Source: Pelagicoccus sp. SDUM812005 (GTDB lineage: Bacteria > Verrucomicrobiota > Verrucomicrobiia > Opitutales > Opitutaceae). Taken from it: 64,000 bases of DNA. Of the stretch, positions 6,114 through 50,475 are shown piece after piece. The translations under genes and the position numbers were made by a program. The stretch spans positions 124,001-188,000 of the forward strand of contig NZ_JARXIA010000008.1 in NCBI RefSeq assembly GCF_031127875.1. The letters run 5' to 3'. Each line of letters begins with the position of its first letter. The first letter of the stretch is position 1. The notes under the pieces are model-generated. The model saw only the letters and a list, made by a program, of their open reading frames with translations. It was not told where the DNA came from and searched no databases.

Positions 6114-7177
6114 AGCTTGAGAGCCCCGTTTACCCGCTTCGAAATCTCATCCGCGATTCGGTCGAGCGGCAAAACGCTCTCTGCCAAACCTTCCTTCGCG
6201 AGAAAGCTCGGCATCCCCCAAACCACGCTGCTGGCCTGATCCTGGGCAAGCGCCAGTCCGCCCTGGTCGCAGATCTCCCGCGTACCCAAAAATCCATCAC
6301 GCCCCATCCCAGTCATAACGACCGCGAGGGCGGACGCCCCGTAACACTCCGCAACGCTTCGAAATAGCGCATCCGCCGCCGGCCGACACGAATTTTCCGG
6401 AGGATCTTGGTTCAACCTGATAACATGCCTAACACCCTCCTTCTTGACCGTCATATGGTAGCCGCCGGGTGCCACGTAGGCATGGCCTGCCTGCAGGACT
6501 TGCCCGTCTTCCCCCTCGTGCACCGACATCACCGAACAAGCATCCAGACGCTCCGCCAAGGTGCGGGTAAAGATCGGCGGCATATGCTGCACGATCACCA
6601 CCGGCACCGCCAAGGGCTCCTTCAACTGCTCGAAGACCTTAGCCAGAGCGTTCGGACCACCCGTCGAAGTTGCCAGTGCCACCACTTCGATCGGTTGCCG
6701 CTTTCTCGGGACCGCCGGGGCGCGACGTACTGGCGCCACCGCAACCGCTTCCTTCTTCCTTGGGAAGAAATGCCTGATCTTCGGGAGCAGCTCCCTCTGC
6801 AGCTGAGCCAAAGTCGCCGGTACGCCAATAGAGCGAGCTGGCTTGGCGACATAGTCGCTAGCCCCCGCTTGCAAGGCGTCGAAGGTTGCCTCCGCTCCCT
6901 TCACCGTCAGAGCGCTCAGCATGATGACCGGAATCTTGGGGTGCGTCTTTCGCAACTCGCGCACCATCTCGATCCCATCCATCTCCGGCATCTCCATGTC
7001 CAGCGTGATCACGTCCGGACTCACCTGGTTCACGCGCTGCAGAGCGATGCGACCGTTGGCCGCCACTCCCGCAGTCTCCATCTCGGGATCGCGGTCCACG
7101 ACTTCCGAGACGATCTTGCGCATCACCGAGGTATCGTCGACCACGAGTACGCGAATCTTCTTCATAGCGTTTACCAT
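6107..7177 (-). CDS. cheB: Chemotaxis response regulator protein-glutamate methylesterase CheB
   Basis: Receiver domain (residues 8-125, phosphoacceptor Asp60 in TLDMEMPEMDG) joined by a basic Ala/Pro linker to the methylesterase domain. The catalytic triad is visible: Ser171 in ATSTGG, His198 in QHMPP and Asp294 in MTGMGRDGF. It removes methyl groups from receptors when phosphorylated by CheA. ATG at 7177 is 3 bases after the upstream cheY stop; an alternative ATG lies at 7165. Length (356) is usual. It overlaps cheR, so both adaptation enzymes are co-translated. Confidence 0.96.
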   Translation of the reverse strand: MVNAMKKIRVLVVDDTSVMRKIVSEVVDRDPEMETAGVAANGRIALQRVNQVSPDVITLDMEMPEMDGIEMVRELRKTHPKIPVIMLSALTVKGAEATFDALQAGASDYVAKPARSIGVPATLAQLQRELLPKIRHFFPRKKEAVAVAPVRRAPAVPRKRQPIEVVALATSTGGPNALAKVFEQLKEPLAVPVVIVQHMPPIFTRTLAERLDACSVMSVHEGEDGQVLQAGHAYVAPGGYHMTVKKEGVRHVIRLNQDPPENSCRPAADALFRSVAECYGASALAVVMTGMGRDGFLGTREICDQGGLALAQDQASSVVWGMPSFLAKEGLAESVLPLDRIADEISKRVNGALKLW

Positions 7178-46473: not shown

Positions 46474-47901
46474 ATGCAGCCCATCCGTCAACCGCTCGCC
46501 CTCGAACTCCCCGCCCCGCTCAAGCAGGCCTTGCTCGCCCTCGAATCCGCCGGCGGCACCTGCCGCATCGTCGGCGGCTCCGTGCGCGACGCCCTCCTCG
46601 GCATCACGCCCAAGGACTTCGACGTGGAAGTCTACGGCCTCGACCTCGAAACCATCGCCAAAGCCCTAGCCAAGCTCGGCAAGACCGACCTCGTCGGCAA
46701 GGCCTTCGCCGTAGTTAAACTCTGGACACATGGCGAAGAGTACGACTTCGCCATCCCCCGCCGCGAATCCAAATCCGGCTCCGGCCACCGGGGCTTCGTC
46801 ATCGAGGCCGACGCCCACCTCAGCGAGCAAGAAGCTCTCAAGCGCCGCGACTTCACCATCAACGCCCTCCTCTACGACCACGCAAGCAGCGAGGTCATCG
46901 ACTACTTCGGCGGCCTGCGCGACCTAGAAAACCGCACCCTTCGCCACGTCAGTCCCGCTTTCAAGGAAGACCCCCTCCGCGTCCTGCGGGCCATGCAGTT
47001 CGCCGGGCGTTTCCAGTTAGAGCTGCACGACGACACCGCCACCCTATGCCAGGAGATCGGCCACGAGTTCTGGACCCTGGCCAAGGAGCGCATCTGGACC
47101 GAGTGGGAAAAGTGGGCCTGCCGCTCCACCTCCCTCTCCCACGGCATGCGGGTTCTCGAAAAGAGCGGCTGGATCCGCTACTTCCCCCAACTCAACGCTC
47201 TCAGAAACCTTCCCCAGGATCCGGAGTGGCATCCGGAAGGCAACGCTTGGAGCCATACCCTTTGCTGCCTCGAAGCCCTCATCCGCGAAACCGACTGGAG
47301 CTCGCTCCCAGAAAAGGAACGCGGCGTGCTCGCCTTCGGCACCCTCTGTCACGACCTCGGCAAAGCCCGCTGCACCCGCTGGGCCGAAAAGCGGGGCGCC
47401 ATGCACTGGATCAGCCCCGGGCACGAAACCCAAAGCATATGGCTCGCCGAGCAATTCTTCAACGCCATGCGGGCGCCGCACGAAATCCGCGACAAGGTCA
47501 TGGGGTTAGTTGGGAATCACCACTTTTTGAATACAGTTCCCGAAGGCGGCCACAGCGACGCCTCGCTCCGGCGCCTTGCCAAGCGTCTCAGTCCTGCGAG
47601 CACCCATGAGCTGGTCTACGTCATGACCGCCGACCACCGCGGACGCCCGCCCCTCATTTCAGAGGCTCAAACCTTGCGAATCGCCAACTTCAAAAAGCGT
47701 ATCCAAGAACTGGATCTAGAAAAGCACGCTCCCAAACCGATCCTGCTCGGACGCCACCTCATAGAGCGCGGCCTGAAGCCCGGTCCTGACTTCAAGGCCA
47801 TCCTCGACCGTGCCTACGAAGCCCAGCTCGACGGAGCCTTCCAAGACGCGTCCACCGCTAGCGATTGGCTCGATCAAAATTGGAACGCCCTCAATAGCTA
47901 A
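46474..47901 (+). CDS. tRNA nucleotidyltransferase / poly(A) polymerase family protein with HD domain (CCA-adding type)
   Basis: 475 residues: nucleotidyltransferase head with IVGGSVRDALLG and the metal-binding DFDVEVYG, RRDFTINALLYD, then the RNA-binding FKEDPLRVLRAMQFAGRF, and a C-terminal HD phosphohydrolase domain (LCHDLGKARCTRW). This matches the E. coli Cca-type arrangement, which repairs tRNA 3' ends. Its stop overlaps the convergent RidA gene's stop by 11 bases. Whether it adds CCA, only A, or only CC cannot be read from motifs here. Confidence 0.88.
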   Translation: MQPIRQPLALELPAPLKQALLALESAGGTCRIVGGSVRDALLGITPKDFDVEVYGLDLETIAKALAKLGKTDLVGKAFAVVKLWTHGEEYDFAIPRRESKSGSGHRGFVIEADAHLSEQEALKRRDFTINALLYDHASSEVIDYFGGLRDLENRTLRHVSPAFKEDPLRVLRAMQFAGRFQLELHDDTATLCQEIGHEFWTLAKERIWTEWEKWACRSTSLSHGMRVLEKSGWIRYFPQLNALRNLPQDPEWHPEGNAWSHTLCCLEALIRETDWSSLPEKERGVLAFGTLCHDLGKARCTRWAEKRGAMHWISPGHETQSIWLAEQFFNAMRAPHEIRDKVMGLVGNHHFLNTVPEGGHSDASLRRLAKRLSPASTHELVYVMTADHRGRPPLISEAQTLRIANFKKRIQELDLEKHAPKPILLGRHLIERGLKPGPDFKAILDRAYEAQLDGAFQDASTASDWLDQNWNALNS

Positions 47902-49204
47902 CGGCCAAGGCCTCCACCTCGATCAAGGCTCCCGCTGGCAGCTCTTCGATCGGAAACGCAGTGCGTACCGGCTTTTCGGGGTTCAGCTTTGGGTGATCGA
48001 AAAAGCGACGGTAAGCCTTGTTCCACTCGCCAAACTCCATTCCAAAGTTGTCCTGAATATTCAAATACGCCCGCAGTTGGACCACATTCGGGTAATCGAG
48101 CCCGACCTCAGCCATGCGAGATTCCAAGGTAAGCAAGGACTGCATCGCTTGCCCGTAAATGGCAGACTCCTCCCGATCGATCACTCCCGCAAACCAGGTA
48201 AGCTTGGCATCCCGAGCCACCGCCACCGAGCGGCTGAGAAAGGACGAATCGGCCCCCTCCCGCCACGCTAGGCCGTCTCGGCTTCCTTCCTCGCCGGGAG
48301 TATTGGGAACGAAGGGCCCCATGGCATCCGGAAAAGCCGCGTAGAATTCGATTTCCACTATCCTCCCCGTGGTCGAAAAGCCGGGAGCCGAGAATACGCT
48401 CAACGGGGGCGTCCCCGCTAGCGTCCTTTCCCAAAAGCCTTTCCACGCTCCCTCGAAGCCAGCGAAGTCCGTCTCCCTCGCCCCTTCCTCCGATTCGACT
48501 GGACTCAACATAGCTCGCACGAAAACCAGATCTCCTCGGTTCAAGCCCCAGTCCCGCAAGGTCGCGTCCAACTTCGCCAAGACCGAAGCCGTTTGCTCCG
48601 CCATCGAACCAAAGCCGTTCCCTTCACCCGGCAACCCGTCCGCCAGCACTCCAGAAGTAATCAGCAAGCTCGAGTACGGGCGCACCGCTCGCAACGATTC
48701 CCTTCGATCGGAGGCCCAAAAGACGCGGCTATTTGCTCCCGACTCCCGCAAGTTCGCCACCGCTGCAGCCGGAGCGGCTACCACCGCATCCAAACTCACC
48801 GTCGCTCCCTCCGGTAGCGACGCTACCCCGATCGTCGTACGCGTCGGAGGAGCTTCGTTCTCCGCAAAAGCCTCACTGAAGGCCTCCGACCAATCAGCCA
48901 TTCGCTCACCCATGTCCTCGCCTTTCTCCGCGAGCAAATAACCGCGCACGTTGACCACCGATTCCATGGAGATTCCCGCAGCCTTCAAATCCGAAGCCAA
49001 GGCATCGAAAGCATCGCGGGCCGCCGCGCCGACATTCTTGTCCAAGCCCGCGTATGATTTCGTGAATACAAGGGTCGCCATCGGATCCACCGTGGCGGCC
49101 GCGCTGTAAGCGGCCCCTTGCAACGGCGTAATCTTGAACACTTCCTCGGAAAAAAGCGTCAGGCTTGAGAATAAGAAACAGGCAAAGAGCAGCAATTTAC
49201 GCAT
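47891..49204 (-). CDS. Secreted protein with three tandem RidA/YjgF-type domains
   Basis: ATG at 49204 gives 437 residues with a clear signal peptide (LLLFACFLFSSLTLFS). Three RidA-like repeats follow (about 22-150, 165-290 and 310-437). Domains 1 and 3 keep the imine-binding Arg in TRTTIGVASLPEGA and VRTAFPIEELPAG; domain 2 has PPLSVFSAPG there and looks inactive. RidA proteins hydrolyse reactive enamines/imines produced by amino-acid enzymes and are normally single-domain and cytosolic. Divergent, 62 bases away, is an exported D-amino-acid-oxidase-like protein that should produce imines. Function inferred. Confidence 0.82.
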   Translation of the reverse strand: MRKLLLFACFLFSSLTLFSEEVFKITPLQGAAYSAAATVDPMATLVFTKSYAGLDKNVGAAARDAFDALASDLKAAGISMESVVNVRGYLLAEKGEDMGERMADWSEAFSEAFAENEAPPTRTTIGVASLPEGATVSLDAVVAAPAAAVANLRESGANSRVFWASDRRESLRAVRPYSSLLITSGVLADGLPGEGNGFGSMAEQTASVLAKLDATLRDWGLNRGDLVFVRAMLSPVESEEGARETDFAGFEGAWKGFWERTLAGTPPLSVFSAPGFSTTGRIVEIEFYAAFPDAMGPFVPNTPGEEGSRDGLAWREGADSSFLSRSVAVARDAKLTWFAGVIDREESAIYGQAMQSLLTLESRMAEVGLDYPNVVQLRAYLNIQDNFGMEFGEWNKAYRRFFDHPKLNPEKPVRTAFPIEELPAGALIEVEALAVSY

Positions 49205-49266
49205 AGCGCGGCTGCTAGCAGTATAGGTGCCACCCGTGGCGCAGGCTCTGCTCAAGCGCGAGCAAG

Positions 49267-50475
49267 ATGTCTAGTAACTATAAACGCAGGGAATTCCTGC
49301 GCCTCGCCGGCTTGGGCCTCGGCCTCGGCGTGAGCGGGCGCTTCGCCAACGCAGCCGATCTTTCCGAAGCGCCCAGCAGCGCTCGACCGCATACCAGCTA
49401 TCCGCAGTACGGAAAAATCCCGCTCGTTCGGGCTTCCCAGGACCGCATCGTCAAGGAGACCGTTGGCCTGCGCCCCTTCCGCGAAAGCGGACCAAACCTC
49501 GGGCACGAAAAGATCGGCGACAAGAGCGTCTTCCACAACTACGGCCACGGCGGCTCCGGCTGGTCGCTCTCTTGGGGAACCAGCGCCCAGGTCACCCACG
49601 AAGCGCTCAGCACCGGGGCGGAGTCATTCGCGGTGGTAGGCTGCGGAGCCATCGGCCTCACCTCTGCCATCCTCCTGCAAAGGGCCGGCAAGAGCGTCAC
49701 CATCTACGCTAAGGACCGTCACCCGAACATCACTTCCAGCGTAGCCACCGGCGTCTGGTCGCCCGACTCCCGCATTTGCCTGAAGCAGCACGCCACCGAT
49801 GCCTTCGCCACTTGGTGGAACGATACCTGCCGCCACTCCTTCAAGTCCTACCAAACGTTCCTCGGCCTGCCCGGCTCCCCCATCGAATGGGTCGATTCCT
49901 ACGCCGTTTCCAACACTCCCTGGGACGCCGAAAGGCCAAAGGTTCCCAACGACACCCAGCCCGAGTACGGCCACTTCCGCGACCACGTGCAGGACCTCAC
50001 CCCACGCTTCGTCGACCTCGACAAAAGCGCCAACCCCTTCCGCGAGCCCTATGCGAAAAAAGGCTCACGCATGATCTTCAACATCTCCGCCTACCACCAA
50101 ACCCTGCTCCGCGAATTCACCAGTCTCGGCGGCCGCATCGAGAGCCGCGACTTCCAAAGTCCCGCCCAATTCAAGAAACTCCCCGAGCCCGTCATCGTCA
50201 ATGCCACCGGCCTCGGTTCCAAGACCCTCTTCGGCGATACCCAAATGCACCCCGTTCGCGGACAGCTCACGGTGCTGATCCCGCAGCCCGAACTCAACTA
50301 CAGCTTTTCCAACAACGATGCCTACGTCATTCCGCGACGCGACGGAGTCGTCATCGGCTCCAACCAAAACGGCATCATCGATTCCACCGACCTGGACGTC
50401 GATCCCGAGCAAAGCTTCGATGCCGTCGCCGCCATCGCCCGCTCCATGACCCAATCAAAGATCGCTAAAATCTAA
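49267..50475 (+). CDS. Tat-exported D-amino-acid-oxidase-like flavoprotein with permuted domain order
   Basis: 402 residues. A twin-arginine signal (KRREFLRLAGLGLGLGVSG) precedes GLRPFR (67-72) and NYGHGGSGWSLSWG (91-104), which in D-amino-acid oxidases form the C-terminal end. Only then come the FAD motif VVGCGAIG (123-130), VNATGLGSK (311-319), PVRGQL (329-334) and YVIPRRDGVVIG (353-364), after which the protein stops just where the family would continue to GLRPxR. The carboxylate-binding Arg (GLRP) and the active-site Tyr (AYVIP) are present. So it should be a functional DAAO fold with relocated ends, exported folded with FAD to the periplasm. Product: 2-imino acid and H2O2. Neighbour: secreted RidA-domain protein, divergent. 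Confidence 0.85.
   Translation: MSSNYKRREFLRLAGLGLGLGVSGRFANAADLSEAPSSARPHTSYPQYGKIPLVRASQDRIVKETVGLRPFRESGPNLGHEKIGDKSVFHNYGHGGSGWSLSWGTSAQVTHEALSTGAESFAVVGCGAIGLTSAILLQRAGKSVTIYAKDRHPNITSSVATGVWSPDSRICLKQHATDAFATWWNDTCRHSFKSYQTFLGLPGSPIEWVDSYAVSNTPWDAERPKVPNDTQPEYGHFRDHVQDLTPRFVDLDKSANPFREPYAKKGSRMIFNISAYHQTLLREFTSLGGRIESRDFQSPAQFKKLPEPVIVNATGLGSKTLFGDTQMHPVRGQLTVLIPQPELNYSFSNNDAYVIPRRDGVVIGSNQNGIIDSTDLDVDPEQSFDAVAAIARSMTQSKIAKI

Follow-up and report, generated by a model that had tools for sequence, protein, structure and literature searches.

A D-amino-acid-oxidase-like flavoprotein of Pelagicoccus is, by sequence comparison, a natural circular permutant

The flavoprotein encoded at positions 49267–50475 of a 64,000-nucleotide stretch from Pelagicoccus sp. 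SDUM812005 (hereafter, the window) is circularly permuted relative to D-amino acid oxidase (DAAO), a conclusion that our sequence comparisons confirm. We consider it very probable that the protein is a natural circular permutant of the DAAO/D-aspartate oxidase (DASPO) family, taken together with the duplication route and the Tat-exported, Rid-linked amino acid oxidation that we propose for it. The gene is an uninterrupted, forward-strand open reading frame of 402 codons with an ATG start and relatives of the same arrangement. Its product begins with a twin-arginine signal peptide, read by eye (approximately residues 1–30, KRREFLRLAGLGLGLG...; 49267–49356), followed by GLRPFR at residue 67, NYGHGG at 91, VVGCGAIG at 123, PVRGQ at 329 and YVIPRRDG at 353, which is the order and the residue numbering that the first-pass annotation had given. 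The hallmarks of the DAAO/DASPO family are thus present, namely the GxGxxG Rossmann motif (GCGAIG, 125–130), the arginine of GxRPxR (Arg69) and HNYGHGG (90–96), but their linear order departs from the canonical one. Residues 51–116 (49417–49614), which hold GLRPFR, HNYGHGGSG...SWG and the last helix, are homologous to the C-terminal end of canonical DAAO, as judged by alignment to PDB chains, rotation and a cut-point scan; residues 117–402 (49615–50472), the FAD-binding and substrate core, are homologous to its N-terminal and middle part, as judged by Pfam, PDB and rotation comparisons. The chain had also been described as ending right after the YVIPRRDG segment and one short helix. A new C-terminal helix is indeed predicted at approximately residues 380–393 (50404–50445; residues 334–347 of the trimmed model), with the chain cut in the loop behind it, in low-confidence models with a pLDDT below 50 here, but 38 residues follow YVIPRRDGVVIG.

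Rotating the sequence restores much of the canonical alignment. The native protein matches the Pfam DAO profile (PF01266; cut-off 27.9 bits) in two stretches with 98.4 bits, the best covering residues 122–393 on profile positions 3–296. Against DAAO and DASPO chains in the PDB it aligns in one to three separate stretches, with residues from 121 onwards on the N-terminal part and approximately 59–115 on the C-terminal end (for example, 61–115 on 320–377 of 7ct4). Both halves are therefore homologous and their order is exchanged, as expected of a circular permutant. A rotated construct, residues 117–402 followed by 51–116, matches Pfam DAO in a single stretch (6–345 on 3–350 of 353, 108.1 bits) and pig DAAO likewise (6–345 on 4–326). 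Its matches to 1c0i, 6rkf and 7ct4 are longer, yet remain in two pieces, which counts against the permutation.

For a scan of 356 cut points, a canonical profile was built from 17 proteins (12 of the class, four from plasmids and the pig enzyme). The optimum lies at cuts 114–118, close to where canonical proteins start, with the best single match rising from 114.7 bits in the native protein to 167.5–167.7 bits. The whole-protein score is nearly flat on rotation (169.8 to 170.8 bits) because it sums the pieces. Rotation at the homologous place costs each of the 17 canonical proteins 89.6–124.5 bits; as the same 17 built the profile, their scores are inflated, and the contrast lies in the direction of change. 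On the permuted side, 17 of 26 proteins gain at least 43.6 bits in the best single match, whereas in the other nine the pieces fail to join into a longer match (−0.1 to +5.1 bits), which counts against the claim. Together with relatives of the same arrangement and a one-branch split on trees, described below, these comparisons support the permutation claimed in the first-pass annotation.

A search for relatives with the same arrangement, which that annotation had proposed, returned 25 further permuted proteins, from Verrucomicrobiota, Alphaproteobacteria, Actinomycetota and viral contigs. The closest named relative, on a named Pelagicoccus scaffold (L010), has 85% identity and the same motif order. 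In the class survey, 27 of 384 genomes gave a match; by piece order 14 are permuted, 12 are canonical and one shows the Rossmann motif only. Among 57 relatives, six, including the window's own genome, carry a full-length permuted gene, another (G041) carries a divergent permuted gene and another (G015) a decayed one; within the genus the gene is patchy, being found in four of seven other genomes. A profile search of the phylum gave matches in 254 of 387 genomes, and among the matches listed most span the GxGxxG region only; ten full-length permuted proteins had E < 1e-100. These whole-genome searches covered the window's own phylum, and other phyla were seen through plasmid and viral records: six permuted plasmid records (Niveispirillum, Kozakia, Rhizobium, Bradyrhizobium, Nonomuraea and a frame-broken Mesorhizobium) and two distinct viral ones. 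On both IMG/VR contigs, L053 (1–5211) and L054 (916–4017), the permuted gene adjoins a gene that by eye resembles a terminase large subunit, and on L053 also a portal-like one. Other candidates were rejected as permuted: phage record H65 has the canonical order, and the piece coordinates of plasmid matches from Halostagnicola and Mycobacterium lentiflavum appear canonical. Our counts omit L010 (taken as the same genome as L003, which it equals in scaffold length and gene position), L055 to L061 (same contigs as L053 and L054, L055 being a near copy), L030 (frame break), L007, L009 and L081 (decayed), L093 (a 50-residue C-terminal match in G056, a genome of the window's taxonomic order), L019 to L021 and L050 (Rossmann motif only) and L022, L023, L051 and L052 (second pieces of loci already listed); L053 is kept despite a frame break near its C-terminal end.

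This distribution makes it vanishingly improbable that two ordinary DAAO gene pieces were joined in the wrong order by assembly or annotation. The sole support for such an artefact is that the order differs from that of the family; the gene is one uninterrupted reading frame, and the same order recurs in other genomes of the genus, taxonomic order and class, in other phyla and on the named scaffold. An assembly error near 49.6 kb, which the first-pass annotation had named beforehand as one finding that would refute its proposal, is excluded because independent genomes with 27–87% identity share the arrangement.

The permutation maps to one branch of the sampled tree, as shown by the aligned sequences. 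With 43 rows of rotated sequences (26 permuted and 17 canonical), the two groups split on one branch (99/94). A tree of the core only gives the same split, again on one branch (98/92, or 100/100 without the long row L008), so rotation cannot produce the permuted grouping. Without L008, the program flagged a meeting of two long branches, those of pig DAAO and the permuted group; as pig DAAO alone sets the root, a single origin here refers to one change within the sampled tree. In the window protein, the closure linker, which connects the former C-terminal end at SWG with the former N-terminal end at GxGxxG, comprises 20 residues (105–124; 49579–49638), as it does in most of the 26 permuted rows; it has 21 residues in L011 and 24 in L008 and in five proteins with no export signal. 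Canonical tails measure 9–16 residues in 16 proteins, and canonical heads 6–10 residues to the closest methionine in 13 of the 16 (the other three have none). The old termini are thus joined directly, as expected of a circular permutant, with a linker about as long as direct head-to-tail fusion would leave.

The sequence thus shows an architecture in which the last DAAO block (GLRPxR, NYGHGG and the last helix) stands at the N terminus and the old ends are fused by the short linker; the new ends fall between two elements, the helix that follows the YIIPxxDG strand and the GLRPxR-bearing strand. It may have arisen by head-to-tail duplication of the gene, after which copy 1 gained a new start and copy 2 a new stop. 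The same topology could have been reached by fission of the gene and re-fusion of its parts, with a different route. No tandem-fused intermediate occurs among the loci read, and in one Mesorhizobium locus the halves are encoded by two overlapping reading frames, which would favour fission; however, the break there falls inside GxGxxG and looks like decay or a sequencing error rather than an ancestral split. Because the linker is about as long as a natural tail joined to a natural head and contains nothing extra, which is what read-through from one copy into the next would produce, we regard fission and re-fusion as unlikely and prefer tandem duplication.

Superposing a predicted structure on DAAO was among the checks that the first-pass annotation had proposed, and the predictions obtained are of low confidence. 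Two AlphaFold models, from four sequences, have a mean pLDDT of 48.9 and 58.4 and a pTM of 0.52 and 0.64. Foldseek ranked DAAO and DASPO chains at the top for both of these low-pLDDT models, with TM scores of approximately 0.3 and no permuted alignment in its output. A solved permuted structure was sought in the PDB with two permuted profiles and rejected: judged by coordinates, none of the 20 and 17 sequences matched is in permuted order. The models are weak regarding the packing of the N-terminal block, which leaves some room for a domain-swapped assembly, in which the relocated block would complete the active site of a neighbouring chain. We hold this to be very unlikely, as the linker, with the last helix included, has 20–24 residues, no more than a chain closing on itself would require.

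In pig DAAO, Arg283 binds the substrate, Tyr228 is the substrate tyrosine and Tyr224 the lid tyrosine. The Arg283 position is arginine in all 43 rows (26 of 26 permuted and 17 of 17 canonical) and corresponds to Arg69 in the window protein (49471–49473); the histidine of HNYGHGG is likewise found in all 26 permuted rows. Tyr228 aligns with Tyr353 (50323–50325), a position that is tyrosine in 22 of the 26 permuted rows and replaced in L012, L024, L025 and L034. The glycine of GxRPxR is cysteine in L008, L024, L025 and L034, and the position of pig Gln53 is Ser165 in the window protein. The lid tyrosine is absent from the window protein, where it falls in a gap; the 16 bacterial canonical rows have no tyrosine there either, so the lid tyrosine is not a defining feature in bacteria. 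The Tyr228 replacements, Ser165 and this gap weigh against the proposed reading.

Beside the permuted gene lies a divergent gene (47891–49204, reverse strand) that encodes a signal-like N terminus and three tandem Rid domains. In three slices, its product scores 40.6, 19.0 and 44.6 bits against the Rid profile (PF01042), so three domains are found although the second falls short of the 27.3-bit cut-off; by eye, the catalytic arginine is in domains 1 and 3 of nine out of nine such proteins and missing from domain 2. The two start codons share a 62-bp intergenic region (49205–49266), the Rid start having been picked by eye. Within it, a near-palindrome, GGTGCCACCCGTGGCGCA (49226–49243), has a similar counterpart in the three closest relatives (L063, L064 and L070) and is possibly an operator. 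The same head-to-head pair, with 61–145 bp between start codons, occurs in nine of the ten genomes of the taxonomic order that hold an intact permuted gene (G000, G001, G002, G005, G007, G038, G180, G204 and G484), and in five of these nine none of the other tested window neighbours is beside it. The tenth, G041, has a divergent permuted gene on a 12-kb contig where no Rid gene was detected. In G015 (L081, approximately 6416–7113), decayed DAAO and Rid remnants lie side by side, as if the pair had been lost together. The linkage was rejected as a general rule: it is seen only in the window's taxonomic order, and a tblastn scan with E up to 1e-4, which took in loci other than the viral ones and L030, detected no Rid gene at a further 14 permuted loci (seven of f23, one each of f27 and f124, and five on plasmids). 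These absences, like that in G041, count against the proposed reading.

Other neighbours vary. An aminotransferase class I/II gene with a signal-like N terminus (L068, 172–1326; 166.4 bits) adjoins the Rid gene at one locus. On the Kozakia plasmid, a cytochrome c gene (L025, 3622–4050) starts 5 bp past the permuted gene, which would favour a dehydrogenase there. On three of three rhizobial plasmids (L026, L027 and L030), a permuted gene without signal is followed by a thiamine-pyrophosphate enzyme gene, and in two of the three it is preceded by an FAD-binding oxidoreductase gene; the Mesorhizobium plasmid copy of the permuted gene has a frame break.

The pairing in nine of ten genomes suggests oxidation of an amino acid to an imine in the periplasm, followed by hydrolysis. 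The Tat-exported FAD enzyme would oxidize a free D-amino acid, or a related alpha-amino acid, to the imino acid, with Arg69 holding the substrate carboxylate and oxygen or a respiratory carrier accepting the electrons; the exported three-domain Rid protein would then hydrolyse the imine to a keto acid and ammonia. Precedents in the literature support this imine model: excerpts of Niehaus et al. (PMC4433059) describe Rid genes that cluster with those of FAD-dependent amine oxidases and Rid hydrolysis of imines made by amino acid oxidases, and excerpts on DauA (PMC5619798) and DadA (PMC9714295) report that each releases imines that some Rid proteins hydrolyse. In an excerpt of a chitin-oxidation study (PMC9537276), a RidA-family gene with no known role lies beside a D-amino acid deaminase gene, which offers a lead. 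The flavoprotein may instead have left amino acids for an amine, an opine or a sugar-acid amine. The loss of Tyr228 in four of 26 rows, the cysteine in GxRPxR in the four proteins named above and the failure of any of the best 25 of 56 NCBIfam families to pass its cut-off speak for such a change of substrate, while the arginine in every row, the intact FAD motifs and the Rid partner gene speak against it; we regard it as a serious possibility, though the less probable one, and keep amino acid oxidation as the working model.

The first-pass annotation had further suggested that the permutation is suited to Tat export. By eye, 20 of the 26 permuted proteins begin with a twin-arginine signal, to which 10 add a lipobox-like cysteine, L008 has a Sec-like signal and five (L017, L026, L027, L028 and L054) have none, whereas an export signal was seen by eye in none of the 16 canonical bacterial proteins. 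The contrast lends weak support to the suggestion, with the five signal-less proteins standing against it: they show that export is not required for the permuted form, and a strict tie between permutation and Tat export was rejected on their account. Because the permutation lies on one branch, the Tat association counts as one evolutionary event, and the tree is compatible with export arising before or after the permutation. A broader scenario would have a single old permutation shift the DAAO N terminus from the Rossmann sheet to a surface loop, allow the enzyme, folded and loaded with FAD, to acquire a Tat signal (with a lipoprotein anchor in places) and so found an unnamed class of exported amino-acid-oxidizing flavoproteins, which in one taxonomic order have exported, three-domain Rid partners in the periplasm. 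We hold this scenario to be possible, though less likely than not.

Many structures have been solved for DAAO, a textbook flavoenzyme, and neither of two permuted profiles hit a PDB chain in the permuted order. A natural permutant placed on a single branch, in a class that also holds canonical relatives, offers a clean test of how the fold copes with new ends and of whether export was made possible by the new N terminus. The Rid gene linked to it encodes a signal-like start and would predict imine chemistry outside the cytoplasm. Automatic annotation gives plain 'FAD-dependent oxidoreductase', which hides a distinct family. We read the protein as a variant of the known DAAO family whose permutation is apparently unreported in the titles and abstract openings of the papers listed by searches of the open-access PMC literature, a scope that most subscription papers lie outside.

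Among characterized systems, Pseudomonas DadA and DauA have the ordinary motif order, and their Rid proteins have a single domain. The likeness to the Pseudomonas DadA–DadY and DauA–Rid systems lies in an FAD-dependent D-amino acid dehydrogenase whose imine product is hydrolysed by a Rid protein, with dadA and dadY in one operon; the excerpted texts mention no export for them, unlike what we predict here (PMC9714295, PMC5619798). The neighbouring Rid protein resembles the 3x-RidA proteins (for example, EF_0115), presumably linked trimers, in carrying three Rid domains per chain, and differs from them, as they are described in excerpts of PMC4433059, in its signal-like N terminus and in a middle domain without the arginine that scores 19.0 bits against Pfam's cut-off of 27.3. 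Canonical DAAO-like proteins of the same bacterial class (L018 and L039 to L049) share the motifs of the permuted protein but have the ordinary order and, by eye, no signal peptide. Relative to pig DAAO, the permuted protein lacks the lid Tyr224 and has a shorter loop ahead of Tyr228. With the DAAO/DASPO family as a whole (PF01266; 1c0i, 1an9, 6rkf and 7ct4), it shares the FAD and HNYGHGG motifs, the equivalents of Arg283 and Tyr228 and homology in both halves, and it departs from that family in having the halves exchanged and a predicted export signal at the new N terminus.
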